From contig NZ_CP042432.1 in NCBI RefSeq assembly GCF_008033235.1, positions 3,596,001 to 3,660,000 on the forward strand: a stretch of 64,000 nucleotides of DNA, written 5' to 3'. The notes beneath the pieces are model-generated. The model was not told the origin of the DNA. It saw only the letters and a program-made list of their open reading frames with translations, and did no database searches. Numbering within the stretch: the stretch's first letter is position 1; the number at the start of each line of letters is the position of its first letter. Made by a program: the position numbers and the translations under genes. Below are positions 1 to 35,792 of the stretch, piece after piece. This stretch comes from Anseongella ginsenosidimutans. GTDB lineage: Bacteria > Bacteroidota > Bacteroidia > Sphingobacteriales > Sphingobacteriaceae.

Positions 1-136
1 AGTCAAGCAACAGAAAAGGGCTGATTCTCCGCTGGCTGATGCCTCCGCGTGGAATGTAATTGAATACCCGGAATCCGTTGCCGACCATACCCGGGTTGGC
101 CGGCTTGCTCAAAATATTTTCAATTGCCTTTTTCAT
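1..136 (-). CDS. Pirin family protein, N-terminal fragment
   Basis: Read on the minus strand from the ATG at 134-136, about 45 residues are visible before the window edge cuts the gene. The stretch GFRVFNYIPRGG followed by ISQRRISPFLLLD is the typical start of pirin-family bicupins, which bind a metal through histidines further downstream (not visible here). Some pirins have quercetinase activity or act as redox-sensitive cofactors; the role here cannot be told. An AAAGGT ribosome-binding site lies just upstream of the start. The family call rests on the N-terminal motif alone. Confidence 0.8.
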   Translation of the reverse strand, partial: MKKAIENILSKPANPGMVGNGFRVFNYIPRGGISQRRISPFLLLD

Positions 137-12802: not shown

Positions 12803-12951
12803 ACACCAGCTTTTTTCGCCATTTTCTCTGACAGCGCGTTCAGCAGCAATTTATTATAGTTTTCAAGAAGAAAAACATACTTGTTTTTCCAGTAGTCGGG
12901 TTGTGCGGTAGCTCCATCCTTTTTATCTGCTTTTTTTTCTTGCGTTTGCAT
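12799..12951 (-). CDS. Small charged protein of unknown function (50 aa)
   Basis: A 50-codon minus-strand gene: MQTQEKKADKKDGATAQPDY then WKNKYVFLLENYNKLLLNAL and a basic end KMAKKAGV. A good AAAGGA ribosome-binding site lies seven bases before the ATG, unusual for this phylum and strong support for translation. A lysine-rich disordered N-terminus precedes one amphipathic helix. It is divergent from the ligase D gene (95 bp between starts) and converges on the 62-residue gene. A role connected to the ligase is possible but unsupported. Confidence 0.6.
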   Translation of the reverse strand: MQTQEKKADKKDGATAQPDYWKNKYVFLLENYNKLLLNALSEKMAKKAGV

Positions 12952-13046
12952 TGAATTTCCTTTCGAACAGCTTTCCTACCAATTCCGTGCCGTTTCTTCG
13001 CCGCTACAATTGCTTTGGCAGGTTATTTGAAATCAAAACCGTTAGC

Positions 13047-15062
13047 ATGGGACTCAATATAACTGCATTACTGAAGAAAAGAAAGCGCGCCCGGATGCCT
13101 TCCGGCATACAGCCAATGCTGGCCACGGCGGTAAACGAACCCTTCAGTGATCCGGCCTGGCAATACGAAGTAAAGTGGGACGGTTACCGCTGCCTGGCCT
13201 TTCTGAATAAGAGAAAGGTTGAATTATTATCCCGGAATAAAAAATCCTTTACAGGGAAATACTACCCCTTAACAACGATATTGGAAAAATGGCCCTTTAA
13301 TGCCGTTCTTGACGGAGAGATCCTGGTGATAAATAAAGAAGGAGTGGCCGACTTCGGGGCCTTGCAAAACTGGCGCAGCGAGGCGGACGGCGATTTGACC
13401 ATGTATATTTTTGACTTGCTTTGGTACGAAGGGAAAGACCTTACCGGGCTTCCCCTAAAGGACCGCCATTCGATATTGAAGGAAATATTACCCGCCGATG
13501 ATGACCGGGTTCGCCTGAGCCAGGTCTTCGAAGCAGACGGCCTTGAGTTCTATGAAGCAGCAAAAAAACTGGGGCTTGAAGGCATTATGGCTAAAAAGGC
13601 CGATAGTACGTATTCAGTTGGGACACGCACCAGACAATGGCTCAAGATCAAAATCGACAAGAGGCAGGAAGTGGTTATTGGCGGTTATACAAGGAACGAA
13701 GGTTCCACCAAAAGCTTCAGTTCGCTCCTGCTGGGTGTGTACGAAAATGGCAGGTTTCTATACGCGGGAAAAGTGGGAACGGGTTTCACCAACAAAATGC
13801 AAAAGGAATTGATGAAGGCATTTAAGCCGCTTACCATTCCCACCTGCCCTTTTGAGCATGAACCCGATGTCAATAAGCCATCCAGGTTTCGCCCGGATCC
13901 GCCGAAGGCTATTCCTACCTGGCTAAAACCTCAGTTGGTTTGTGAGGTCAGTTTTGCCGAAGTCACCAGCGACGGTGTGTTTCGCCATCCTTCCTTTCAG
14001 GGAATGCGCGAAGATAAAGAGGCCCGCGAGGTCACCAGGGAAAAGGAGATGGACACCGGAGCAATCCTGGAAGATAATAGCGAAAAAACTTCCCGTAAAC
14101 GGGCCCTGATACGATCTTCCAGCAGCAAAGCAGCAAAAACGCTGTTGAACCCCAATGAAAAAACCCAGGTAAAGAAAATCAATGGGCGCGAGCTGAAATT
14201 CACCAATCTCAATAAGCTGTACTGGCCAGACGAAGGATTGACCAAAAGGGACCTGCTCAACTATTATTACCAGGTTGCCGAATATATTCTCCCTTACCTG
14301 AAAGACCGTCCCTTGTCCCTTAACCGTTTCCCCAATGGCATCAAAGGAAAAAGTTTCTATCAAAAAGACGTAAAAGGCAAATCCCCCGGCTGGGTAAAAA
14401 CGCATCCCTACACCACTTCCGAAGGAGAAGATAAAGAATTCCTGGTGGGCGACGATAAGGCTACCCTTCTTTGGATGACATCCTTAGGCTGCATTGAAAT
14501 GAATCCCTGGTTCAGCCGGACAAAATCCCCGGACCATCCCGACTATTGCGTACTGGACCTGGACCCCGATAAAAACACGTTTGAACAGGTAATCCTGGCG
14601 GCGCAGGAAGTCAAAAAAGTACTGGATGACCTGGGCGTTCCCTCCTACCCCAAAACCTCCGGCTCCACCGGAATACATATCTATATTCCTTTGGGGGCAA
14701 AATACGACTATGACCAGTCTCAGCTGTTTGCACGCATGGTTGTCAACAAAGTCCACGAACGGATCCCGAAATTCACCAGCGTTGAGCGCCAGATAAAAAA
14801 CCGGAAAGGAAAAATGTACCTGGACTTTTTACAAAACCGCCCCGGCGCTACGCTCGCCTGCCCCTATTCACTTCGACCTAAACCCGGAGCAACCGTTTCC
14901 ATGCCGCTGTTCTGGGAAGAAGTAAAAAAAGGCCTGTCCATGTCTGATTTCACGATTCATAATACTCTTGAAAGGCTAAAAGCGGAGGGCGATCTCTTCA
15001 AAGCCGTATTGAGAAAAGGCATTGACCTGGAAAAGGTGATCGAAAAGATGGATAACAGTTGA
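13047..15062 (+). CDS. ligD: DNA ligase D, ligase plus polymerase domains
   Basis: 671 residues from the ATG at 13047 (MGLNITALLKKRKRARMPSG is the family-like start; the frame is open from 12951). The ATP-dependent ligase domain comes first: nucleotidyl-accepting Lys43 in YEVKWDGYR, then DGEILVINKEG, GLEGIMAKKADSTY and LKIKIDKRQEVVIGGY, followed by an OB fold ending near FRHPSFQGMRE. A basic serine-rich linker leads to the primase-like polymerase domain (RELKFTNLNKLYWPDEGLTK to the C-terminus) with the metal site VLDLDPD and TSGSTGIHIYIP. The protein acts in non-homologous end joining with Ku. The phosphoesterase domain found at the N-terminus of many LigD proteins is absent, and no Ku gene lies in the window. 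Confidence 0.93.
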   Translation: MGLNITALLKKRKRARMPSGIQPMLATAVNEPFSDPAWQYEVKWDGYRCLAFLNKRKVELLSRNKKSFTGKYYPLTTILEKWPFNAVLDGEILVINKEGVADFGALQNWRSEADGDLTMYIFDLLWYEGKDLTGLPLKDRHSILKEILPADDDRVRLSQVFEADGLEFYEAAKKLGLEGIMAKKADSTYSVGTRTRQWLKIKIDKRQEVVIGGYTRNEGSTKSFSSLLLGVYENGRFLYAGKVGTGFTNKMQKELMKAFKPLTIPTCPFEHEPDVNKPSRFRPDPPKAIPTWLKPQLVCEVSFAEVTSDGVFRHPSFQGMREDKEAREVTREKEMDTGAILEDNSEKTSRKRALIRSSSSKAAKTLLNPNEKTQVKKINGRELKFTNLNKLYWPDEGLTKRDLLNYYYQVAEYILPYLKDRPLSLNRFPNGIKGKSFYQKDVKGKSPGWVKTHPYTTSEGEDKEFLVGDDKATLLWMTSLGCIEMNPWFSRTKSPDHPDYCVLDLDPDKNTFEQVILAAQEVKKVLDDLGVPSYPKTSGSTGIHIYIPLGAKYDYDQSQLFARMVVNKVHERIPKFTSVERQIKNRKGKMYLDFLQNRPGATLACPYSLRPKPGATVSMPLFWEEVKKGLSMSDFTIHNTLERLKAEGDLFKAVLRKGIDLEKVIEKMDNS

Positions 15063-15218: not shown

Positions 15219-16649
15219 ATGCATTTAAATTCCGTGCTTTTACCTCCAAAAGTACTTTGGATTTCCACGTTACTCGTGATTTCTCCTTTTTTTTCCCGCG
15301 CGCAAACCGTGCAGGAACTTGGGGATCTGGCAGATTTTAAAAATCCCGGGCCTACCTGGCAAATGACCGGGAAAGTGAAGGCCAGCCTGGAAAATCCGGG
15401 GGAACTTATTCTTTCAGCAGGCAATGATATCCTCGTCAATTATCCCACCAGGAAAAAACACGGGCAGGACCTGTACACCGTAAATGAATACGGCGACATG
15501 GAGCTGGAACTGGATTACCTGATGGCCCGCGGTTCCAATTCGGGAATTTACCTGCAGGGGCGTTATGAGCTGCAGTTGCTGGATTCCTGGGGTGTCCCCA
15601 CGCCTTCCTACGGGGATAACGGCGGCATTTATGAACGCTGGGATTCTTCCAAACCCAAGGGATCGGAAGGATACGAAGGACGCGCGCCCAGGCAGAATGT
15701 GAGCCGTGCGCCAGGTGTATGGCAGCACCTGAAAGTTTCTTTCCGCGCTCCGCGCTTTGATGCTTCCGGTAACAAAACAGAAAATGCCGTTATTGAACAA
15801 GTGGTATTAAATGGCGCCCTGATCCATGAGAACGTCGTATTATCCGGGCCAACACGCGGAGCAATGAGCGAAACGGAAGCCGCAAAAGGCCCCCTTCGTT
15901 TCCAGGGAGACCATGGCGCTGTTGCTTTTCGCAACATCCGGGTCACCGTTTATGACGCTGGCAAAGAACAAGCAAACGAGGAAGAAAGATCCTTGCCCGA
16001 TCCTATTTTCGTGGATGCGCCGGTAAACACCAACCTTAGAAGCTTTATGGATATTCCCGGCGGCAAGCGCGTGGTCCACAGCATTTCCGCAGGCAGCAGG
16101 GAACAGGTACATTATACCTATGACCTGGACCACGGATCTTTATTCCAGGTATGGCGCGGCGGTTTCCTGGATGCTACCCCCATGTGGCATTCCCGCGGCG
16201 ACGGTTCTTCCAGGCCGCGCGGAGCAAAGGTATTCCTTGGCGAGCCGGTCCTTGCCCTGAGCCCCCTTGCTTCGGCACAGGCTAACTGGCCCGCCGACAC
16301 AACCGGCAGCAGCTTCGTTCCTGACGGATATACTCTGGACGAGCAAAACCGGCCCGTATTCAATTACCAGATCAATGGAGCCCATGTGACAGACGCCTCC
16401 AGGGCGTTAGACAAGGGTGAAGGCTTGCTTCGTGAAATTACCGTAACCGGCGGCAGCGGGGAACTGTACCACCTGGCAGCACGGTCGGAGAAGATTGAGC
16501 AGGTTAGCCGCGAACTGTACCTTATCGGCGATAATGCCTGGTACATCCGTATTAATGACGGGGCCAAGCCTGTCCTGCGTGAAAAAGAAGGGCAAAAAGA
16601 ACTGATTATCCCTGTGAACCAAAAGATTAGCTATTCAATATTATTCTAA
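15219..16649 (+). CDS. Secreted DUF1080 protein (3-keto-disaccharide hydrolase-like)
   Basis: 476 residues with a signal peptide ending FFSRA|Q. Residues about 45-250 form the DUF1080 concanavalin-like domain: MELELDYLMARGSNSGIYLQ, YELQLLDSWGVPTPSYGDNG, VWQHLKVSFRAPRFD, GDHGAVAFRNIRV. The remaining half (about 265-476) begins PDPIFVDAPVNTNLRSFMDI and looks like a second beta-rich domain seen N-terminal to related PVC-type proteins; it contains WRGGFLDATPMWHSRG. Characterised DUF1080 members cleave 3-keto-glycosides in the periplasm. The stop codon directly abuts the start of the cytochrome dehydrogenase, so the two are translationally coupled. Confidence 0.87.
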   Translation: MHLNSVLLPPKVLWISTLLVISPFFSRAQTVQELGDLADFKNPGPTWQMTGKVKASLENPGELILSAGNDILVNYPTRKKHGQDLYTVNEYGDMELELDYLMARGSNSGIYLQGRYELQLLDSWGVPTPSYGDNGGIYERWDSSKPKGSEGYEGRAPRQNVSRAPGVWQHLKVSFRAPRFDASGNKTENAVIEQVVLNGALIHENVVLSGPTRGAMSETEAAKGPLRFQGDHGAVAFRNIRVTVYDAGKEQANEEERSLPDPIFVDAPVNTNLRSFMDIPGGKRVVHSISAGSREQVHYTYDLDHGSLFQVWRGGFLDATPMWHSRGDGSSRPRGAKVFLGEPVLALSPLASAQANWPADTTGSSFVPDGYTLDEQNRPVFNYQINGAHVTDASRALDKGEGLLREITVTGGSGELYHLAARSEKIEQVSRELYLIGDNAWYIRINDGAKPVLREKEGQKELIIPVNQKISYSILF

Positions 16650-18647
16650 ATGAGAAGGTTTTATACTAATTTCCTCTGCTGTTTGTTGCTGTGTGCCGGC
16701 GCCTTTTTCCAGGCAGCAGCGCAGGAAACTCCAAAAGAAGAAGATTTTTTCCAGATCAAAAAGGTGAGGGTTCCGGAAGGTATCCTGCTGGAAGTAGGCG
16801 GGCTTACTACCCTTCCCAACGGGAACCTGGGTATTTCTACCCGGCGCGGCGACGTGTATATCGTGGAGAACCCTACCAGCAATACACCCTATTTCCGGAA
16901 ATTTGCCTCCGGCTTGCATGAGATCCTGGGATTGGCCTGGAAAGACGGTGATCTGTATTGCGTTCAGCGCGGAGAACTTACCCGCCTTGCAGATACCGAC
17001 ATGGACGGGAAAGCCGATCTGTATGAAACAGTATATGCCTGGCCGCTGACCGGGAATTACCATGAATACAGTTACGGACCTGCTATTGCACCTGACGGCT
17101 CCTTTTATGTAACCACCAATGTGGGCTTTTGGGGAGAGCAATGGTGGCGCGGAGACAGCCGCGTACCCTGGAGGGGCTGGACCATGCGGATCGCCCCCGA
17201 TGGCACTATGCAGCCCTGGGCGGCAGGCATGCGCTCACCTGCCGGACTCGGCTTTATTGGCGATGAATTATTCTATACCGAAAACCAGGGTGACTGGATT
17301 GGCTCCGGCGGCCTCTGGCATTTACGCAAAGGCGACTTTACCGGCAACCCTGCCGGGCTGAAATGGGCGCACCTGCCGGAATCTCCAGTGAAGCTTACCT
17401 ATAAGGAATTCACGTCAAAGATCGATATCCGGGAGGACAAACGCCCTGACGGCGGTTATATCAAACCGGAAAATATCCAGAACGAACAAGACTACCTGAC
17501 GGCGCAGGGGGTACAAAAATTCTTTCCTTCCTTGCGGCTGCCCGCTGTCTGGCTTCCCCACGGCATCCTTGGAATTTCCAATTCCCAGCCCATTAAGATC
17601 CCGGAGGGTCATTTCGGTCCTTTTGAAGGCCAGATACTCGTAGGCGACCAGGGAATGAGTATGATTTCCAGGGTATTCCTTGAAAAAGTAAACGGTGAAT
17701 ACCAGGGCGCCGCTTTCGCCTTCCGCAGCGGTTTCCGCTCAGGCGTACTTCGCCTGTCATGGGCTCCCGACGGTTCCCTGTTTGCCGGTGAAACCAACCG
17801 GGGTTGGGGCTCGGCCGGCGATGCAAATGAAGGCCTGGAGCGCCTGGTATGGAACGGGAAAACCCCTTTCGAAATGAAAGCCGTCCGCGCTATGCCGGAT
17901 GGATTCGAGATTGAATTCACCATGCCTGCGGACCCGGTATCGGCCGGCGACCTGGCCTCTTATTCTGTAGCCAGCCATACCTATAAATACCATCCTGTTT
18001 ATGGAAGCCCGCCCGTGGCCCAGGAAACCTGCAAGGTAACAGGCGTGAAACTTTCCGAAGACGGTTTAAAAGCGAGGATCGTCGTTGAAAATCTTCGCCC
18101 CCATTTCGTACATACCATCAGCCTGGATGGAGTGCGGGAAAAGGAACATTACTATTCACTTGTTCATCCTACCGCCTATTATACCCTGCATTCCATTCCG
18201 GAGGGCAAAAAATTGACGGCGGCTGAAGTAAGCACCAGGGATTCTTCCATCCCCGAAGTGGCAGCGGCTCCGGTAAGCGAACCTGAAAAGGGAAGCGGAC
18301 CGCAGTCTGTAGGTCAGAACGACGCAAAAGCCGTTTCAACAAAAGAAACCTCCGCAGCGCCGTCTAAAAAAACGACCACAGCTCCGGCAATAAACCCAAA
18401 GGAAATCAAAGGCCTGCTGGCAAAGTATACCTGCATTGCCTGCCATAATGCCGACAAACGGCAGGTAGGGCCGGCGTATAAAGATATTGCCGCAAGAAAA
18501 TACAGCAACGAAGAAATAGTCGAGCTGATCCATAATCCCAAGCCTCAAAACTGGCCGGACTACGCTACGGAAATGCCTCCCATGGCACATGTTCCGAAAG
18601 CGGAAGCGCTTAAGATCGCAGCTTATATTAATTCACTTGCAAAGTAG
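16650..18647 (+). CDS. Secreted dehydrogenase-like propeller protein with C-terminal cytochrome c
   Basis: 665 residues with a signal peptide (to FFQAAAQ). Residues about 35-400 form a beta-propeller of the PVC-type/glucose-dehydrogenase-like class (GLTTLPNGNLGISTRRGDVY, MRSPAGLGFIGDELFYTENQ, VWLPHGILGISNSQP, LSWAPDGSLFAGETNRGWGS). Residues about 410-505 look like a beta-sandwich. An Ala/Pro/Ser/Lys-rich linker (about 525-580) precedes a class I cytochrome c: haem motif CIACH (Cys595, Cys598, His599) and a likely axial methionine in EMPPMAHV. It probably oxidises a sugar-like substrate and passes electrons to the haem. The start follows the DUF1080 stop without a gap. Confidence 0.88.
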   Translation: MRRFYTNFLCCLLLCAGAFFQAAAQETPKEEDFFQIKKVRVPEGILLEVGGLTTLPNGNLGISTRRGDVYIVENPTSNTPYFRKFASGLHEILGLAWKDGDLYCVQRGELTRLADTDMDGKADLYETVYAWPLTGNYHEYSYGPAIAPDGSFYVTTNVGFWGEQWWRGDSRVPWRGWTMRIAPDGTMQPWAAGMRSPAGLGFIGDELFYTENQGDWIGSGGLWHLRKGDFTGNPAGLKWAHLPESPVKLTYKEFTSKIDIREDKRPDGGYIKPENIQNEQDYLTAQGVQKFFPSLRLPAVWLPHGILGISNSQPIKIPEGHFGPFEGQILVGDQGMSMISRVFLEKVNGEYQGAAFAFRSGFRSGVLRLSWAPDGSLFAGETNRGWGSAGDANEGLERLVWNGKTPFEMKAVRAMPDGFEIEFTMPADPVSAGDLASYSVASHTYKYHPVYGSPPVAQETCKVTGVKLSEDGLKARIVVENLRPHFVHTISLDGVREKEHYYSLVHPTAYYTLHSIPEGKKLTAAEVSTRDSSIPEVAAAPVSEPEKGSGPQSVGQNDAKAVSTKETSAAPSKKTTTAPAINPKEIKGLLAKYTCIACHNADKRQVGPAYKDIAARKYSNEEIVELIHNPKPQNWPDYATEMPPMAHVPKAEALKIAAYINSLAK

Positions 18648-21518: not shown

Positions 21519-22925
21519 ATGGCATCAAAAGATTACTCTCGCAGACAATTTGTTAAAGGAATGGCTGTTTCCGCTGCCGGCTTTATGATCCTGCCCCGCC
21601 ACGTGCTGGGCGGCAAAGGCTTCCTGGCGCCCAGCGACAAGGTAACCGTGGGCATCATCGGAGCAGGCGGCAAAGGGAGGCAAAACACAGGCTCGCTTTT
21701 GCAACTGAACGACGTCCAGGTTACCAGTATCGCCGATCCCGCTCCCTACTGGGATCTGAAGGACTTTTATTACAAATCAAAGGCCGGCCGCGGGCCGGTA
21801 AAGAAAATGATCGAAGACCATTACCAGGCACAGAACAGTTCTTACCGGATCAGCGAATACCTTGACTTCCGGGAAATGCTCGAAAAGGAATCTTCGCTTG
21901 ACGCGGTAGTCTGCTCCACTCCCGACAACACCCATGCTTATGTATCGTTAAAAGCCATGCGGGCCGGGAAACATGTGTACTGCGAAAAGCCCCTTACCCA
22001 TAATATCTGGGAAGCCCGGAAAGTAAAGGAAGTCGCAAAGGAAACGGGACTGGCTACCCAGATGGGAAATTCGCTTCATAGCGGAGAAGGTATCCGCCAG
22101 ACGGTGGAATACCTTCGCGACGGCGCCATCGGGAAAGTAGAAGAAGCGCATACCTGGGTACCTGCCCAGCGCTGGAACCCCGGCTTGAGCGGCATCCCTG
22201 CCAGCCCGGTCCAAAGCGGAGAAGATATCGGCTGGGACCTGTGGCTGGGCCCTACCCCTTTCATGCCCCTGCACCCGGAATACGTGCCGGTTACCTGGCG
22301 GGATTTCTGGGCGCTTGGATGCGGCGCCCTTGGCGACTTCGGCTGTCATGACCTGGACGCTTCCGTCTGGGCCTTCAACCTGCATACACCCAAAAGCGTA
22401 CAGGTATTTCCGGCCGGATACAGCGATGAACACATTGCTCCTTACGGAGAAACCGGCTATTATTATTTTGAAAAAAATGGCGACCAGCCTGATTTTAAGC
22501 AGGTCTGGTATTCCGGCGGACTGCAGCCTCCCCGGCCGGAATTGCTTCCAAAGGATGTGGAAATGCCCCACCGGGGCTCGCTCTTTATCGGCAAAAAAGG
22601 AATTATCGTTACCGGCGCGGGGGGCTCTAATCCGCAGATCTATCCCGAAAAGAGGCGTGAGCGGTACAATCCGCCAAAGCCGGAAATTCCCCGTTCCAAC
22701 GGCCATTTCAGGGATTGGATCGATGCAATTAAGGGAGGCCCGGCAGCAAGCGCTAACTTTATTTACGGAGCGCGCCTGACGGAACTTACCCTGCTTGGTG
22801 TACTTTCCCTTCGCCTGGGCGGAAAAAAGATCCATTGGGACGGCCCTGACATGAAAGCCATTGGCTTACCCGAAGCAGATAAGTACCTGCGGGAACCGGT
22901 CAGGAAGGGATGGGAAATGATTTAA
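21519..22925 (+). CDS. Tat-exported Gfo/Idh/MocA oxidoreductase
   Basis: 468 residues. A twin-arginine signal SRRQFVKGMAVSAAGFMIL opens the protein, so it is exported folded, probably with bound NAD(P). The Rossmann motif VGIIGAGGKGRQNTGSL, the DAVVCSTPDNTHAYVSLKAM strand, and EKPL in VYCEKPLTHN (catalytic lysine) are classic. The C-terminal half has GCGALGDFGCHDLDASVWAF, common in the secreted Bacteroidota/Planctomycetes subgroup. Some secreted members oxidise sugars at C3, which would feed DUF1080 hydrolases such as the one at 15219. Second gene of the 20069-23792 run. Confidence 0.92.
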   Translation: MASKDYSRRQFVKGMAVSAAGFMILPRHVLGGKGFLAPSDKVTVGIIGAGGKGRQNTGSLLQLNDVQVTSIADPAPYWDLKDFYYKSKAGRGPVKKMIEDHYQAQNSSYRISEYLDFREMLEKESSLDAVVCSTPDNTHAYVSLKAMRAGKHVYCEKPLTHNIWEARKVKEVAKETGLATQMGNSLHSGEGIRQTVEYLRDGAIGKVEEAHTWVPAQRWNPGLSGIPASPVQSGEDIGWDLWLGPTPFMPLHPEYVPVTWRDFWALGCGALGDFGCHDLDASVWAFNLHTPKSVQVFPAGYSDEHIAPYGETGYYYFEKNGDQPDFKQVWYSGGLQPPRPELLPKDVEMPHRGSLFIGKKGIIVTGAGGSNPQIYPEKRRERYNPPKPEIPRSNGHFRDWIDAIKGGPAASANFIYGARLTELTLLGVLSLRLGGKKIHWDGPDMKAIGLPEADKYLREPVRKGWEMI

Positions 22926-24196: not shown

Positions 24197-24248
24197 CTAT
24201 TCGCTACCCCGGCGCTATTCACCACCTGACGCTATTCGCCACCCGATG
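24197..24248. repeat. Three degenerate 17-18 bp tandem units across a stop codon
   Basis: CTATTCGCTACCCC, CTATTCACCACC and CTATTCGCCACCC start at 24197, 24215 and 24232. On the minus strand each unit reads like GGTGGCGAATAG, and the innermost contains the last codons and stop (TAG) of the copper-dehydrogenase gene. The coding end was therefore duplicated downstream. Confidence 0.7.
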
Positions 24249-27141
24249 CAATTTGCTCAATAACAGCAATAGCCGCAGCCTGATCTTCCCGCAAGTCATC
24301 CTGCGCCTGCAGTTCCTGCCTGGTCTTGTTTAAAATGGTCATGGCGGCGCTCTTGTCCTCGGTTGCACCCAGGCGTTGTACGGTGTAAGTCAGCAAATTG
24401 GGCAGGGCAGCTTCCTTTGCAATATCAATAGCCCGCTGGGCATCCAGTTCTACCATCGGTTCCAGGGCGTACCAGACGATAAGGGGAAGATTATGGTCTT
24501 CGAAGTCCTCTTCATGTGAACAAAGGTTCTCCAGGATCGTCCAGCATTGGGCCGGATCCATTCGCTGAACAGCAGACGCGATGTACAAACGCACCAGGGC
24601 CGACTCATCATTCGCCGCCATTTGTTCCAAACGGGCCACCGCACCGGCAGGCACTTTCTTATCTTCCGCCATCAGCTGTATGGCCCAGGAACGCACATAT
24701 TCGTCCTTATTATCCAGCAATTCCAGGAACTGCTGCTCGCTGATGCCCCCTGTTACATGGAGGGCCCACAACGCCCGCAGCTTCCGGGTGACGTCCGGGT
24801 TCTCGTTCAGTATCTTCCACAGGGCCTGGTGTACCTCGCCGCCGGCTTTTCTTTCCTGCAGCAGGCGACGGGCGTGCCGCACGTACCATTCATTTTCATG
24901 AAGCTGCAATTCCACCAGCTCCAGGTCCGTCTTTTTGCTGAGGTCCACTTTCACCCATTTATCTTCTTTGTGAGAGATTTTATAAATGCGGCCCAGCGTC
25001 TTGTTATGTACGTCGGGATTAGGGTTATGGCATTGATTCTGGTCATACCAGTCATGCACGAATATTGACCCGCTGGGAGCGATCTGGAAATTCAGCCAGA
25101 GGGACCAGGAATCGTTCGTGAGAATAAAGTCTTCACCGTGAGAAGCCGTGTACCCGGAGCCTGAACGGCTGATCTTATCCTGGTTTACGCGGTGGCCGTG
25201 AATATTGTTCATGAAAATGGAATTGCGATCCAGGCCCCAGTGTTCGTTACCCAGGTAAAACATGGCGCCGGCATGGGCATGGCCCCCGCCTGCTGCGGCG
25301 GAACGGAAATTCCCCGCATGCGGACCGCTGTCCCCTAACCAATGCACATGATCAGCAATGGTTTCGATATCATCGTACGTATACGGATTAAAGTGCTTTC
25401 CGCCCTGACGGAAGTAACGCCCTCCCTGGATCATATGAAATAAATGAGGGATCACACAAACCGTCACAAAGGTATGCCCGTAATCATTGAAATCGATACC
25501 CCATGGATTGCTGGTGCCGTGCGCGAATACTTCAAACTCATGCCGGGTAGGATGATAACGCCATACCCCCGCATTCAGGCCAACCCGTTCCTCATCCGGC
25601 GTGCCGGGCTTTCCAACCCTCGAATGGGTAAACACCCCGTGCGTGCCGTACAGCCAGCCGTCCGGGCCCCATTTAAAGGTATTCATTGTCTCGTGTGTAT
25701 CTTCGTAACCGAAACCGTCCAGCAGTATCTGCGGCTCACCGGCCGGTGCATCACCGGTTTCGTCAATGGGAATGTACATGAAATAGGGAGCGGCTCCTAC
25801 CCAAACGCCGCCAAAGCCTACCTCAATGCCGCTTACCAGGTTCAATCCGTCAATAAACAGCTTCCTTGAATCCAGGGAACCATTGCCATCGGTATCTTCA
25901 AAGATCAGGATCTGGTCTCCTCCCTTTCCTTCTTCGGCCCGCACGGGGTAGGTATGGGATTCCACGACCCACAAACGGCCCCGGTCATCCATTGCCATCG
26001 CGATAGGCTTGGTTATTTCCGGCTCGGAAGCAGCCAGGGAAATTGAAAATCCTTCCGGCAGCGTCATCGCTTTTACCGCTTCCTCCCCGGAAAGACCGGC
26101 ATGTTCCACTACGTCTCTTTCCGGCAGGATAATAATATCAGCAGGCGATAACTCCCGGACGTATTCCGGCCGCTCTTTATGAAAACGGAAATCATCAAAT
26201 GAAATATGAGACCATTTATTATCCCCTATATAATGTATCTCCGGCACTTTTCCGGTTTCTTCATCGACCAGGCGGATAAACATTTCCTTTCCCATATAAG
26301 GTTCCAGGTTCACCACCACCGGCCGGAAAACCCCCTGCGTTTTACCCGCAATATGCCCTACATTGACAGGGCCGGAAATCTCGAAAAAAGCCGTATCCTG
26401 CCCGGCAAGCACCAGTTCCACCCGCGTTCCTTCCAGCGCGCCTCCGGTCACTTTAAAAGACGCCCAGGGAGCGGCTATTTCAAACGTTTCCGAAGTAAGG
26501 ACGCCCGTAGCCACGTAATTATTTGTACCGCCGCTGGTTACGTAATAATCCCCGCTCTGTTTCAGCTCCATACTATCAGGATACCAGGGAGCCGGATCAA
26601 AGGCGACCGATTTAGCGCTGAAAGCGCTTCCTTCCGCCTTCCAGTCTGCTAAGCTTGCCCGTTCAAATCCGAGGTTCAGGGGCTTTCCGTTCTTTCGCGG
26701 AGAATAACCCACGTCGCTGATAGTCTTTTCAAAACTTTCTACGATCTCAAACCGCCCGTTCATCATCTGCCGGTGCCCCGGAATACTGCAGAAATAAACG
26801 TCGTCTTCCAGCGCTTCGAATTCGATCACCGCGGTATCTCCTTCCTCCACTACCGGTTCGCTGCGGAGGCCCAGTTTTTCCATGACAATATCATGCGCCA
26901 TCAGTTCTCCGTTGATAAGAGTGATCTTTACCCGCTCGCCTTTCTTTGCGCGCAGCACCGGGTTCCGCACGCCGTCAATATCGCCTCCGACGCCGGTGTA
27001 GCCGGTCATTTTCGAATTAAGAACGTACTCCCGGTCAATCGTGTCTTTTTCAGCCTTTTCCTTCTTCATTACACAGCCGCTCTGAATGCAGGCCGAAAAT
27101 AAAAGAGCAATAAAGGTTATCCTTTTCCTGGTCAGGTTCAT
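24232..27141 (-). CDS. Cupredoxin-fused PVC-type dehydrogenase lipoprotein with HEAT-like C-terminus
   Basis: 969 residues; likely lipoprotein (FSACIQSGC). Residues about 38-135 form an azurin/plastocyanin-like domain with all type-1 copper ligands: His83 in MAHDIVM, and Cys118, His123, Met127 in CSIPGHRQMM. Residues about 150-330 look like a carbohydrate-binding-like beta-sandwich. Residues about 355-720 are the PVC-type membrane-bound dehydrogenase propeller (GFSISLAASEPEITKPIAMA, MDDRGRLWVVESHTYP, GPDGWLYGTHGVFTHS, NPWGIDFNDYGH). Residues about 750-969 are helical HEAT-like repeats. No CxxCH haem motif is present, although cytochrome c domains are common in relatives. It is transcribed in the same direction as the ABC transporter genes, 187 bases downstream. 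Confidence 0.88.
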   Translation of the reverse strand: MNLTRKRITFIALLFSACIQSGCVMKKEKAEKDTIDREYVLNSKMTGYTGVGGDIDGVRNPVLRAKKGERVKITLINGELMAHDIVMEKLGLRSEPVVEEGDTAVIEFEALEDDVYFCSIPGHRQMMNGRFEIVESFEKTISDVGYSPRKNGKPLNLGFERASLADWKAEGSAFSAKSVAFDPAPWYPDSMELKQSGDYYVTSGGTNNYVATGVLTSETFEIAAPWASFKVTGGALEGTRVELVLAGQDTAFFEISGPVNVGHIAGKTQGVFRPVVVNLEPYMGKEMFIRLVDEETGKVPEIHYIGDNKWSHISFDDFRFHKERPEYVRELSPADIIILPERDVVEHAGLSGEEAVKAMTLPEGFSISLAASEPEITKPIAMAMDDRGRLWVVESHTYPVRAEEGKGGDQILIFEDTDGNGSLDSRKLFIDGLNLVSGIEVGFGGVWVGAAPYFMYIPIDETGDAPAGEPQILLDGFGYEDTHETMNTFKWGPDGWLYGTHGVFTHSRVGKPGTPDEERVGLNAGVWRYHPTRHEFEVFAHGTSNPWGIDFNDYGHTFVTVCVIPHLFHMIQGGRYFRQGGKHFNPYTYDDIETIADHVHWLGDSGPHAGNFRSAAAGGGHAHAGAMFYLGNEHWGLDRNSIFMNNIHGHRVNQDKISRSGSGYTASHGEDFILTNDSWSLWLNFQIAPSGSIFVHDWYDQNQCHNPNPDVHNKTLGRIYKISHKEDKWVKVDLSKKTDLELVELQLHENEWYVRHARRLLQERKAGGEVHQALWKILNENPDVTRKLRALWALHVTGGISEQQFLELLDNKDEYVRSWAIQLMAEDKKVPAGAVARLEQMAANDESALVRLYIASAVQRMDPAQCWTILENLCSHEEDFEDHNLPLIVWYALEPMVELDAQRAIDIAKEAALPNLLTYTVQRLGATEDKSAAMTILNKTRQELQAQDDLREDQAAAIAVIEQIASGGE

Positions 27142-27328: not shown

Positions 27329-28294
27329 TTACTTCAGGAAGTGATCCACATTTTCGCGGGTAACCAGCTGAAAAGGAATATAGATGGAACCTCCGGCGGC
27401 GGAATCACTCTTTTGAATGTAATCGACCGCCATCTGAACGGCCTTTCTTCCCTGCTCGTCCGCGTTTTGGTAAACCGTTGCATCCAGCCGCCCCTCCTTA
27501 ACCGCCCGCAAGGCATCATCTATGGCGTCAATACTCACGACCACTACTTTTTCTTTCAGGCCAGCCTGCTCCAGCGCTTGTAAGGCGCCCATCCCCATTT
27601 CGTCGTTCTGGGCAAATACCGCATTGATCTTGCTTCCGTAAGATTGAATCCAGTTTTCCATCAGGCTCATCGCTTTAGCCCGGTCCCACTCGGCGGTTTG
27701 CTCCGCAAGGATGGTGATGCCCGGATGATCAGCCAGCACCGTCTTGGTTGCGGCCGCGCGCTTTAGTTGGGCAGCCTGCCCCATATAACCGTGCATAACC
27801 ACAATATTCCCCCTTCCGTCAAGCAGATTTACAATATGCTCAAGCGCTATTTCGGCCGATTCTTCATCGCGAGATCCTACGAAGCCGTCCGGCTCGGCGC
27901 TCGTTTCCGAATTGACGTTGATAATGGGAATGCCTGCTTCTTTCGCTTTTTGGACGGCCGGTGAGCTGGCCTCCATTTCACAAGGGTTGAGAATGATCGC
28001 ATCCACGCCCTGCGCAATAAAGCTTTCCACCTGCTGAACTTGTCTTACCGCCGCACGTTGCGCGTCGTTTACGATCAACTTCACCTGCTGCTCGCTTGCT
28101 TCGGCTTCCATGGCGTCCTTTACCTTTACAATAAATTCGGACTGCAGGCTGAGCATGGACGCGCCGATCACCAGCTTCCCGTCGGTTTGCCCGCCGCCCT
28201 GGCAAGCGCTAAGCAATACAGCGAGTACCCCTATTCCTGCGAAAGATCTGATGTTGCGGTCGCTAACTTTTGTTTTCATCTTGAATACTGACAT
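27329..28294 (-). CDS. Sugar ABC transporter substrate-binding lipoprotein (ribose type)
   Basis: 321 residues; lipoprotein signal with lipobox LLSAC about 30 residues in. Periplasmic-binding fold of the RbsB/Peripla_BP_4 class: KLVIGASMLSLQSEFIVKVK, VDAIILNPCEMEASSPAVQK, GIPIINVNSETSAEPDGFVG, VFAQNDEMGMGALQALEQAG and VVSIDAIDDALRAVKEGRLD. It captures a pentose, hexose or sugar derivative and delivers it to the permease. Last gene of the importer operon (ATPase, permease, binding protein); 5 bases separate it from the permease. Ribose-type importers are uncommon in Bacteroidota, which usually rely on SusCD and MFS carriers. Confidence 0.9.
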   Translation of the reverse strand: MSVFKMKTKVSDRNIRSFAGIGVLAVLLSACQGGGQTDGKLVIGASMLSLQSEFIVKVKDAMEAEASEQQVKLIVNDAQRAAVRQVQQVESFIAQGVDAIILNPCEMEASSPAVQKAKEAGIPIINVNSETSAEPDGFVGSRDEESAEIALEHIVNLLDGRGNIVVMHGYMGQAAQLKRAAATKTVLADHPGITILAEQTAEWDRAKAMSLMENWIQSYGSKINAVFAQNDEMGMGALQALEQAGLKEKVVVVSIDAIDDALRAVKEGRLDATVYQNADEQGRKAVQMAVDYIQKSDSAAGGSIYIPFQLVTRENVDHFLK

Positions 28295-28299
28295 CTTGG

Positions 28300-29259
28300 T
28301 TATTTTTTCCGGTCTATCAGCGCCGCAGCGATGATAATGACCCCTTTGATTATTTGCTGATAATAGGAAGAAATATTCAATAAATCCAACCCGTTATTAA
28401 TGACGCCGATCAATAGCACGCCAAGAACGGTTCCGCCGATACTTCCGATGCCACCGGCAAGGCTTGTTCCGCCGATAACCACGGCCGCGATCGCATCCAG
28501 CTCGTAGGCTACTCCGGCATTTGGCTGTCCGGTAGTGATCCTCGAGGCCAGCACGATCCCCGCAATGGCGGCCATGCCGCTGCAGATCATATAGGAAACG
28601 ACCTTTACGGTGTTCACAGGCACGCCGGATGCATAGGCAGCCTTTTCGTTCCCTCCTACCGCGTACATATATCTTCCTATCCTTGTTTTATTCAACAGGA
28701 AAGAACTGACCAGTATGATCGCGCTGAAGATAAGTATAGGAACCGGTACGCCCAGCAGGCTGCCGCCACCGATATAATTAAAGGAATCGGACAGGTTGGT
28801 CACCGGGCGACCTTCGCTGGCTACCAGGGCCAGCCCGCGGGCGATGGTCATCATTCCCAGGGTAACAATAAAAGGAGCAACTTTTCCCCGGGTCACCGCC
28901 AGGCCGTTCAGCCCTCCGATCGCCAGGCCGGCAAGAATAGCGGCGGTAAGCGCTGCTATGAGTGGATATTCTCCCGGGTGGGCAAATAAGGCGGCCACGA
29001 CCCCGGTAAAGGCTACTACTGAGCCCAGCGAAAGGTCAATCCCCCCGCTGATAATGACAAAGGTCACCCCAATGGCCAGGATCCCGTTAATTGATACTTG
29101 CCGCAGGATAATTGTCACATTCTGCAGGGAGAAAAAATTGGGCGTTACTAAAGATAATATCAGGCAAATAAGCGCAAAGGCACTTAGCATTCCGTATTTC
29201 CGCAGGTAGCCGCCGTTCATTATGCGCTTTGCGGGAAGGTTTTCAATTAGCTGGTTCAT
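28300..29259 (-). CDS. Sugar ABC transporter permease (RbsC type)
   Basis: 319 residues with eight to ten hydrophobic segments. Family motifs: ILRQVSINGILAIGVTFVII, SGGIDLSLGSVVAFTGVV, VTLGMMTIARGLAL, RYMYAVGGNEKAAYASGVP and ELDAIAAVVIGGTSLAGGIG. It forms the membrane channel of the importer as a dimer. Its start overlaps the end of the ATPase gene by 17 bases, indicating coupled translation. A later ATG at 29220 is possible, but the conserved-looking N-terminus supports the longer form. Confidence 0.9.
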   Translation of the reverse strand: MNQLIENLPAKRIMNGGYLRKYGMLSAFALICLILSLVTPNFFSLQNVTIILRQVSINGILAIGVTFVIISGGIDLSLGSVVAFTGVVAALFAHPGEYPLIAALTAAILAGLAIGGLNGLAVTRGKVAPFIVTLGMMTIARGLALVASEGRPVTNLSDSFNYIGGGSLLGVPVPILIFSAIILVSSFLLNKTRIGRYMYAVGGNEKAAYASGVPVNTVKVVSYMICSGMAAIAGIVLASRITTGQPNAGVAYELDAIAAVVIGGTSLAGGIGSIGGTVLGVLLIGVINNGLDLLNISSYYQQIIKGVIIIAAALIDRKK

Positions 29260-30733
29260 GTGTCATCGCGTATTTCATGATCAGTTCCTGGGAGGCCTCT
29301 TCCCTGCCCAGTTCTGCTTTCACCCTGCCCTCCCGGATCACCAGAATACGGTCGCTCAGGGCAAGGATTTCAGGAAGTTCGGAAGAGATCAGGATCACCG
29401 CTTTCCCAAGGGCTGCCTGGCTGGAAATGTACTGGTAAATTTCCTGTTTCGCCCCGATATCCACCCCGCGCGTAGGTTCATCAAGGATAATCAGCCCGGG
29501 ACTATTGAGATGCATTCCTGAAAGAACGACTTTTTGTTGGTTACCCCCGCTCAGGCTCTTTACCGCCTGATTGCGGGAAGAAGCCCGGATCCGGAATCGT
29601 TCTATTTCGCGGTCGGCTACCGCATTCTCGCGCGCCGGATCCAGCAGCATGGAACGGCTGTGCTTTTTGAGCGAAGAAAGCACCATATTGTGTTTTACCG
29701 AAGCCTCCGGTATTAAGCCCCATTGCTTGCGGTCTTCGGTTACCAGCCCGATGCCTTGTTTCTTTGCTGCCCCGGGCGAATCAATGCGCGCCGGGAGGCC
29801 GTTCAGCAGCAGTTCCCCGGATGTTATTTTTTCCATTCCTGCTATCGCATGGGCAATGGATGTTCTCCCGCTTCCCATGAGGCCGGCAATACCCATTACT
29901 TCTCCTTTCCGGACCGCGAAGGAAACGCCGCGAGCCCCGGCGGCATGCAGGCCCTTTACCTCCAGCAGGACGTCTCCGGGATGCGTCTCCTCCTTCCGGT
30001 ACAAATTTCCCAGTTCGCGGCCCACGATCAGTGTGATCAGTTCCTGCATGTCCAGCGCGTCCTTCTCACGGGTGGCAATATATTTTCCGTCCCGCAATAC
30101 GGTAACGGCATCCGCCACACGGAATATTTCATCCATTTTATGTGAAATATAAATAATGGCTTTGCCTTGCTGCTTCAGGGCATCTATAATTCTGAAAAGT
30201 ATAGCTGTTTCCCTTTGAGAGATGGCCGAGGTTGGTTCATCCATGATAAAGACGGAGGCCTGATTAGAAACGGCCTTAACAATCTCTACCATTTGCATGG
30301 CCCCGATACTCAGGTTTTTCATCTTTTCATGCACAGGGATGGTAATTTCCAGCTGTTTCATGAGTTCCGCCGCCTGCCCGTATAAACGACTGCGGCTGAT
30401 CCATCCCCCACGGGCCAGCGGTTCCCGCCGCATGAGAATATTCTCCGCCACGGTAAGTTCAGGGAAAACCAGTAATTCCTGGTGGATCATGGAAAGGCCA
30501 TGACGAATGGCATCCCGGGCGCCTGCGAAGCGGACCTCTTTCCCGCGAATGTATAAGCTTCCCTCGTCCGGAGGGAACATGCCCATGAGGATGTTCATGA
30601 AGGTTGACTTACCGGCCCCGTTCTCTCCCATTAAGGCATGAACGCTGCCGCCTTCCACCTGGAGGCGTACGTTATCCAACACCTTGACACCAGCAAAAGA
30701 TTTGGATATGTTTTCGGCCCTGAGTATCTCCAT
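29243..30733 (-). CDS. Sugar ABC transporter ATPase with two nucleotide-binding domains (RbsA type)
   Basis: 496 residues with two fused ABC domains. The first has a full Walker A (GENGAGKST) and Walker B (SVFIMDEPTSAI); the second has a degenerate Walker A (GLMGSGRTS) but intact signature LSGGNQQKV and Walker B IILDEPTRGVD, exactly the asymmetry known for RbsA/MglA/XylG. It powers import by the 28300 permease. First gene of the operon; a palindrome about 85-100 bases upstream of the start may be its operator. Confidence 0.92.
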   Translation of the reverse strand: MEILRAENISKSFAGVKVLDNVRLQVEGGSVHALMGENGAGKSTFMNILMGMFPPDEGSLYIRGKEVRFAGARDAIRHGLSMIHQELLVFPELTVAENILMRREPLARGGWISRSRLYGQAAELMKQLEITIPVHEKMKNLSIGAMQMVEIVKAVSNQASVFIMDEPTSAISQRETAILFRIIDALKQQGKAIIYISHKMDEIFRVADAVTVLRDGKYIATREKDALDMQELITLIVGRELGNLYRKEETHPGDVLLEVKGLHAAGARGVSFAVRKGEVMGIAGLMGSGRTSIAHAIAGMEKITSGELLLNGLPARIDSPGAAKKQGIGLVTEDRKQWGLIPEASVKHNMVLSSLKKHSRSMLLDPARENAVADREIERFRIRASSRNQAVKSLSGGNQQKVVLSGMHLNSPGLIILDEPTRGVDIGAKQEIYQYISSQAALGKAVILISSELPEILALSDRILVIREGRVKAELGREEASQELIMKYAMTHEPAN

Positions 30734-34550: not shown

Positions 34551-35792
34551 TTACTTCCCGATCCGGTACAATCTTCCCTGGTCGGTAACAGCATAGAGGG
34601 CGCCGTCTTTACCCTGGGTTATGCCCCGGAACCGCTGCTTTTCATCGGCGAGCAGCCGCTCTTCGCCGGTTACCTTATTGTCTTCAATTCTCAGGCGGGC
34701 TATATGCATACCGCTCAGGGCCGCCACGAACAGGTTGTTTTCCCATTCGGGGATCGCATTGCCACTATAAAAGGTGATCCCGCTGGGAGAAATAACCGGG
34801 TCATAATAATATACCGGCTGCTCCATTCCCTCCTTTTGCTGAATGGCGTCCCCTATTTTCTCACCGCTGTATTCCAGTCCGTATGTAATGACCGGCCATC
34901 CGTAATTTTTTCCAGGCGCAACGCGGTTTATTTCATCTCCGCCGCGGGGCCCGAATTCCGCTTCCCAGAGATCGCCGGTTTCTGGATGGAAAGCAAGGCC
35001 TTGTACGTTTCTGTGCCCATAGGAATAGATTTCCGCCCTGGCATCGTCCCTGTTCTCAAAGGGGTTGCCCGGAGCCGGCTGACCGTCAGGAGTGATCCTG
35101 ATCACCTTTCCCAGGGAAGAATTCAGATCCTGCGACTGCGGTCTTGTTTCCAGGTCCGACCGTTCGCCGGTGCTAAAAATCAGGTTCCCCGTTTTATCAA
35201 AAAGAATGCGGGATCCGTAGTGCAAGGCACTTTCATGAGCCGGAGTTGCACGGTAAATCACTTCCGCATTTTCAATGGTCTTTTCATCATCCGATAATTT
35301 CCCCTTGGCAATAGCGGTGAGGTTCCCTTCCGGAGTTTTTTCCGAAAAAGCCCAGTAAACCATCCGGTTATCATCGAAAGAAGGATCAATGGTAAGGCCC
35401 AGTAAGCCCCCCTGTCCGTCTGCGTTTACTTCAGGCAGACCCGTGATGGCCCCGCTAAGGGTACCGTCAGGGGAAGCAATCCGCATAGTGCCTTCTTTTT
35501 CGGTAATTAAAAACCGGCCATCGGGCAAACTGGTAATGCCCCAGGGCCTGTTGAGCCCCTCGCTCAGTACTTCAGTTTCGTACGGAGTGGTGGTTTTTAT
35601 TCCGCCAATGCGGGTTTGCCCCTCAAATGCCGGCTGATAATCTGTGTTCGGTTCCTTTGTTTCTACCGGCGCAATGGTCGAGTCCGGGCCGGCCACTTCC
35701 TCCCCGTTGGTCTTTCCCGGGGAAGACTGACAGGAAGAGATGCTCATTGCCAGGCCAAGCGCTATTAATGGAAATCTGGATGTGCTTATCAT
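34551..35792 (-). CDS. PQQ-dependent sugar dehydrogenase-like lipoprotein
   Basis: 413 residues; lipoprotein signal with lipobox SISSC. Six-bladed propeller of the soluble glucose/aldose sugar dehydrogenase class: LNRPWGITSLPDGRFLITEK, GGLLGLTIDPSFDDNRMVYW, HYGSRILFDKTGNLIFSTGE, YSYGHRNVQGLAFHPETGDL, WEAEFGPRGGDEINR and NYGWPVITYG, which supply the PQQ and calcium contacts in this family. It oxidises aldose sugars in the periplasm and passes electrons to the respiratory chain. No PQQ synthesis genes are in the window. It stands alone. Confidence 0.92.
   Translation of the reverse strand: MISTSRFPLIALGLAMSISSCQSSPGKTNGEEVAGPDSTIAPVETKEPNTDYQPAFEGQTRIGGIKTTTPYETEVLSEGLNRPWGITSLPDGRFLITEKEGTMRIASPDGTLSGAITGLPEVNADGQGGLLGLTIDPSFDDNRMVYWAFSEKTPEGNLTAIAKGKLSDDEKTIENAEVIYRATPAHESALHYGSRILFDKTGNLIFSTGERSDLETRPQSQDLNSSLGKVIRITPDGQPAPGNPFENRDDARAEIYSYGHRNVQGLAFHPETGDLWEAEFGPRGGDEINRVAPGKNYGWPVITYGLEYSGEKIGDAIQQKEGMEQPVYYYDPVISPSGITFYSGNAIPEWENNLFVAALSGMHIARLRIEDNKVTGEERLLADEKQRFRGITQGKDGALYAVTDQGRLYRIGK

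Follow-up and report, generated by a model that had tools for sequence, protein, structure and literature searches.

A predicted type-1 copper domain in place of haem c in a TIGR02604/DUF7133 propeller protein of Anseongella ginsenosidimutans

Results

Domain order of the protein

We analysed a stretch of 64,000 nucleotides (the window; G000:C1:3596001-3660000) from the genome of Anseongella ginsenosidimutans, which is 4.32 Mb in a single contig. The subject of this report is one gene in the window, whose product, hereafter the target, carries a cupredoxin domain ahead of a propeller of the TIGR02604/DUF7133 type (Table 1). The propeller scores 340.1 bits against TIGR02604 (curated cut-off 122.2) and 224 bits against DUF7133. 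Towards the C terminus, HEAT_2 falls slightly under its Pfam cut-off (22.7 vs 27.7 bits), and residues ~735-969 form a run of helices in the predicted structure, with a predicted local distance difference test score (pLDDT) mostly of 60-87. Cysteine occurs only at positions 18, 23, 118, 562, 704, 866 and 874, and a CxxCH motif is found nowhere across all 969 residues. Our first-pass annotation, made from the sequence, had described a cupredoxin, a propeller and HEAT repeats in this order without CxxCH. The bit scores and the motif scan bear this out, but the domain at residues ~146-330 had been missed; it is retained in 872-residue relatives that lack the cupredoxin. Judging from its N-terminal residues, the target is a secreted and probably lipid-anchored protein.

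Table 1. Features of the target gene and other genes of the window (window coordinates)
Feature	Coordinates	Strand	Remarks
Target, whole gene	24232-27141	-	969 residues, ATG start; N-terminal cupredoxin, middle domain, DUF7133/TIGR02604 propeller, HEAT
Signal peptide	27073-27141	-	probably of a lipoprotein; predicted acceptor Cys23 or Cys18
Cupredoxin domain	26734-27036	-	residues ~36-136
Middle domain	26152-26706	-	residues ~146-330; without Pfam match
DUF7133/TIGR02604 propeller	24964-26094	-	residues 350-726
HEAT-type alpha solenoid	24235-24939	-	residues ~735-969
His83 codon	26893-26895	-	predicted copper ligand; aligns with His80 of 6tfd
Cys118 codon	26788-26790	-	predicted copper ligand; aligns with Cys117 of 6tfd
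His123 codon	26773-26775	-	predicted copper ligand; aligns with His122 of 6tfd
Met127 codon	26761-26763	-	predicted axial ligand; aligns with Met127 of 6tfd
Ribose-type ATP-binding cassette (ABC) transporter genes	27329-30733	-	ATPase, permease, binding protein; directly upstream of the target, same strand
Second propeller protein	16650-18647	+	C-terminal haem c (CIACH at 595, PF00034)
Third propeller protein	34551-35792		glucose/sorbosone dehydrogenase (GSDH) protein

The copper domain

Residues 47-136 match the N-terminal cupredoxin of the nitrite reductase of Hyphomicrobium denitrificans (6tfd, E 2.9e-13; 2dv6, E 5.5e-13), and a profile of six members matches the same domain at E 5.6e-25 (6tfd) and 6.4e-25 (2dv6). 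With 39 of 90 aligned residues identical, this crystallised domain is the nearest solved relative; His122 is named as a ligand of its copper (PMC7201279). The isolated copper domain also exceeds the Pfam Copper-bind cut-off (22.3 vs 21.2 bits). The ligand set is present in the cupredoxin order His-Cys-His(-Met), and the four residues are invariant in all six aligned members, which come from six assemblies. They are likewise retained in 22/22 fused copper open reading frames (ORFs) and in two aligned separate cupredoxins. When the target's own residues were shuffled 5000 times, H-(25..60)-C-x4-H-x3/4-M arose in 45 shuffles and the exact spacing in one; the motif by itself is thus just fairly rare, and it is homology that establishes the copper domain. 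The first-pass residue numbers for the four ligands were correct, and homology and invariance support them. The label 'azurin-like' did not survive, because the azurin model TIGR02695 reaches only 16.4 bits (cut-off 105.1) and the Hyphomicrobium domain is closer; azurin was accordingly rejected as nearest kin. The ligand loop reads C-x4-H-x3-M in the target and in L021, a homologue described below, and is one residue longer (C-x4-H-x4-M) in other members of this N-terminal subtype.

Haem and copper across the propeller families

All counts refer to Bacteroidota, and CxxCH was taken as haem from the motif alone. We assembled 93 DUF7133-type propeller ORFs from nine genomes (the source genome, and eight others from which every DUF7133 match at E ≤ 1e-15 was taken) plus the selected relatives L021, L050-L052 and L133-L135. 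Sixty carry haem, 22 carry a cupredoxin, 11 carry neither and none carries both. The claim that a copper domain stands where the family usually has haem c is therefore upheld. In 20 further large copper ORFs, from 20 of the 21 such loci on the azurin-like subtype list that had been unread until then, CxxCH occurs in 0/20; 19 of these have a DUF7133-type propeller above 300 bits and one is of the type of the second propeller protein. Among the 11 ORFs with neither module, four are split forms (L050-L053) and L073 has a solitary cupredoxin close by; L032 is frame-split, an in-frame stop was noted in L078, L120 and L132 are short frames, and L024 and L080 are full propellers. L024 (G000:C1:1779334) and L080 belong to a small clade of propeller proteins of 700-714 residues with neither cofactor.

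The source genome alone has DUF7133 matches at 20 places, read as 17 loci. Five have a cupredoxin (N-terminal in the target, C-terminal in four), ten have CxxCH (the second propeller protein included), one is frame-split with CxxCH in its second half and one has neither; both modules together occur in 0/17. One genome thus encodes haem and copper kinds, so the choice of cofactor is made per protein and not per genome. The closest paralogue of the target in its own genome (L028, at G000:C1:3486191) has 1276 residues and a haem c at the C terminus, and is 50% identical over the propeller. The frame-split locus (L032, G000:C1:1624834-1625948) lies in two frames of 331 and 386 residues, the second with CxxCH, and may be a pseudogene or a sequencing error. 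In two ORFs (L084, L088) a ThuA domain, recognised by Pfam in L088 and by sequence similarity in L084, lies C-terminal to the propeller and the cupredoxin; ThuA stands at the N terminus in L022 of the source genome.

The second propeller protein of the window had been annotated as ending in a cytochrome c, and the motif and Pfam match in Table 1 agree. It had also been offered as the target's haem counterpart. We rejected this pairing as the main comparison: at 24.8 bits against TIGR02604 (cut-off 122) it belongs to a separate, distantly related propeller family, and the true partner is the paralogue L028. A search with this second family over 296 genomes (E ≤ 1e-50) gave 50 rows, counted as 36 distinct ORFs in 27 genomes, rows sharing an identical 100-residue core being counted once. 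Every one of the 36 has exactly one tail: 13 haem, 23 copper, none both and none neither. The tail is always C-terminal, and the copper type is azurin-like. The fetched copper frames of 650-720 residues (eight loci, L156-L163, and L152) are relatives of this family. The broader claim of copper and haem as alternatives stands on the absence of double carriers (0/93 and 0/36) and on repeated exchange in the trees; what fell was the choice of the two window proteins, which are too distant, as the comparison.

Trees

The DUF7133 tree includes 76 propellers, with 17 of the 93 omitted as divergent or incomplete (14 haem, 1 copper, 2 neither). All five rows with N-terminal copper group together (support 99/92), and this clade joins the four split forms (100/97). 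Sister to this group is a clade of 11 rows that all have CxxCH, the two together at 100/99; the haem sister extends past the HEAT solenoid to its cytochrome c. Rows with C-terminal copper occupy other parts of the tree, namely one large clade and a position within another that is rich in haem. Between haem and copper the tree needs four changes when the split forms are scored as copper, with no direction of change inferred, and a topology that unites every copper row is rejected (p-AU, approximately unbiased test, 2.4e-36). For the second family, the tree of 36 ORFs has at least two haem/copper changes, both forced by starred branches.

Split genes

In four genomes of one genus (L050-L053; G376, G352, G301, G313), a propeller gene of 869-872 residues has neither copper nor haem, and a separate cupredoxin-HEAT gene of 346-417 residues lies on the same strand, one gene apart. 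The L051 propeller protein shares 53% identity with the target over the latter's residues 134-948, a span that leaves out only the copper domain, and the split-form cupredoxins are 44-51% identical to the target's (three compared). The HEAT stretch of the separate gene is 51% (L051) and 46% (L052) identical to that of the partner propeller, compared with 41% and 34% to that of the target. This pattern suggests duplication with complementary loss, in which the copper module would have departed together with a copy of the solenoid. In another genome (G171), a propeller gene without a tail has a solitary cupredoxin 1.2 kb downstream, which shares 57% identity with the tail fused to the counterpart propeller in the congener G119. 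The copper domain is thus a separate neighbouring gene in two lineages. Two proteins that one genome fuses and another encodes side by side generally act together.

The intervening gene in L051, the one locus where it was read, encodes an FG-GAP repeat protein. Such a gene adjoins homologues of the target in several genomes (L047:3047-4414, L054:4053-5294, L051:6930-8126), and is not beside the target itself.

Occurrence of the cupredoxin subtypes

The target's cupredoxin subtype occurs in 11/395 Bacteroidota genomes (E ≤ 0.001). Two of these are weak matches (frames of 152 and 157 residues), four are the split form, and five have the cupredoxin ahead of a propeller, the source genome among them and one truncated at a contig end. 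The azurin-like subtype is commoner, with matches in 85/296 genomes (E ≤ 1e-10); 35 of its matches, counted by eye, lie in frames of at least 800 residues, in 27 genomes. A single scan of genome contigs found one relative of the target, 81% identical, in a metagenome-derived genome labelled Anseongella ginsenosidimutans (L021). A scan of viral contigs found no further relatives, and a plasmid search with the target gave partial matches only, below 60% identity and none covering 80%.

Discussion

The domain order, the conserved ligands, the homology to a crystallised domain, the mutual exclusion, the repeated exchange and the split genes all point to a propeller oxidoreductase of the TIGR02604/DUF7133 family in which copper replaces haem c, and we consider this reading probable. 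The propeller would oxidise a substrate, probably a sugar or glycoside, and electrons would pass from it to the copper and then to a periplasmic or membrane acceptor. The N-terminal type-1 copper domain would in this way take over the role that haem c plays at the C terminus of related proteins, and cupredoxin and cytochrome c would be interchangeable modules in two propeller families, either one and never both. Here we infer copper loading, electron transfer and its direction, the substrate and the acceptor. The source genome has two matches to haem-copper oxidase subunit I, and therefore a respiratory sink exists. Substrate oxidation is plausible, as hhalign relates the propeller distantly to glucose/sorbosone dehydrogenases (probability 96%); 'dehydrogenase' is a function that we infer from sequence.

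Several observations weigh against copper as the electron outlet of an oxidising propeller. L024 and L080 are full propellers that have neither haem nor copper. Fisher's exact test gives p 1.6e-13 for haem/copper exclusion over the 93 ORFs, a value that is not a probability of independent events because the counted ORFs are akin. Independent pairs on supported branches number 2-3 in the expected direction, 0 opposed and 2-3 with no difference, and the sign test on them (median p 0.25-0.5) is indecisive because the events are too few. The full-length structural model, built from two sequences, has a pLDDT of 39 with only the HEAT part confident, and that of the copper domain alone 57.7, too poor to judge whether the ligands converge. 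Foldseek with the copper-domain model returns mostly copper proteins among its top matches, the best at E 0.045 and none at E ≤ 0.001. The Arg-Asn pair is an active-site feature of glucose/sorbosone dehydrogenases that use pyrroloquinoline quinone (PQQ). Its Arg is replaced by Ser in the target (GTSNPWG vs GHRNVQG), which leaves PQQ chemistry unsupported; there is no match to the GSDH domain PF07995 either, and the label of PQQ dehydrogenase is likewise unsupported. The third propeller protein of the window keeps the pair. A search of the source genome for pqqC gave no match, which is uninformative since the control genomes gave none either.

A different activity has been reported for one relative. 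Lac161_ORF7, a haem-type protein with TIGR02604, HEAT_2 and cytochrome c, is reported to be a lactose-hydrolysing beta-galactosidase that freed glucose from lactose with a Km of 1.8 mM (PMC5342196). This also counts against oxidation by the propeller, and our literature search found no other published activity for a TIGR02604 protein. The propeller might then be a glycoside-cleaving enzyme, either a hydrolase or an oxidation-elimination lyase, with the redox domain serving transient oxidation or acting as an accessory. The genes for a 3-keto-disaccharide hydrolase (15219-16649) and a glycoside 3-dehydrogenase-like protein (21519-22925) in the window would suit such a role. Counter to this, the assay reads glucose through glucose oxidase and peroxidase, the report is a single one, and Lac161_ORF7 is of the haem type. 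We think cleavage unlikely, if the most serious of the alternatives. Other cytochrome-c domain families of Verrucomicrobia are placed in a carbohydrate context, with function unknown (PMC5615132).

It is more doubtful still that the copper domain is an entry or gate on a propeller that does not oxidise, in which case it would act as in the Hyphomicrobium nitrite reductase, tethered so as to give the complex its shape or to deliver electrons to it. The target has no reductase domain, the propeller's distant kin are dehydrogenases, and the module is swapped with haem c in relatives. Since copper binding is a prediction, the cupredoxin fold might instead be kept for storing or sensing copper, or just for stability, and take no part in redox chemistry. 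We regard this as very improbable, given the retention of all four ligands across the fused and aligned separate forms and the mutual exclusion of haem and copper.

The reading of copper in place of haem c can be set beside known systems. The 'PVC-type heme-binding CxxCH proteins' of TIGR02604/DUF7133 (L028, Lac161_ORF7) share with the target a propeller far above cut-off followed by HEAT, but have a C-terminal CxxCH instead of an N-terminal cupredoxin; as N-terminal partner, L028 has DUF6807 and the target the middle domain. With the three-domain nitrite reductase of Hyphomicrobium denitrificans (2dv6, 6tfd/6tfo), the target shares the N-terminal copper domain and the four aligned ligands. 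It differs in that propeller and HEAT follow, without a match to the two-domain core of copper nitrite reductases, and in a ligand loop one residue shorter; the direction of the electrons is presumably opposite. The azurin-like tails (DUF7133: L022, L023, L026; second family: L152, L160) likewise have copper for haem c and the same ligand set, yet are C-terminal or internal and of another cupredoxin subtype. Tethered copper nitrite reductases carry a C-terminal cytochrome (Ralstonia, Pseudoalteromonas) or cupredoxin (Thermus scotoductus), according to the same account (PMC7201279). They set a precedent for one enzyme class that carries either a haem or a copper module, although they reduce nitrite and electrons flow in.

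The principle thus has a precedent in tethered nitrite reductases. In the open-licence literature, which excludes most subscription articles and every bioRxiv preprint, we recognised no paper about haem being exchanged for a cupredoxin in propeller proteins of this kind, and novelty is unproved. The recurrent exchange suggests that this little-studied enzyme family can let electrons out through copper and haem interchangeably. A more general possibility, which we hold to be evenly balanced, is that haem c and blue-copper domains serve propeller enzymes of Bacteroidota as plug-in electron outlets. These would have been exchanged repeatedly, at either terminus and in no fewer than two propeller families, with cupredoxins of two subtypes, or would be encoded by a separate gene that includes a copy of the enzyme's HEAT solenoid. 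The propeller would then set the reaction, and metal supply or partner oxidase would set the outlet.

Proteins of the TIGR02604 type are numerous, with 17 loci in the source genome, and nearly unstudied as far as our literature search shows, and their name presupposes haem. Should the two cofactors prove interchangeable as exits, that name misleads annotation, and natural pairs, for example target/L028 and L073/L074, offer a ready test of what the electron outlet contributes. The solitary copper domains are separable redox partners for assay.

Neighbouring genes and minor observations

The order of the ABC transporter genes and the target is preserved in L021. The 3-keto-disaccharide hydrolase and glycoside 3-dehydrogenase-like genes lie near the propeller genes, a glycoside-oxidation context. 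At 12951-15062 the window also encodes a DNA ligase D, with the ligase domain ahead of the primase-polymerase domain.
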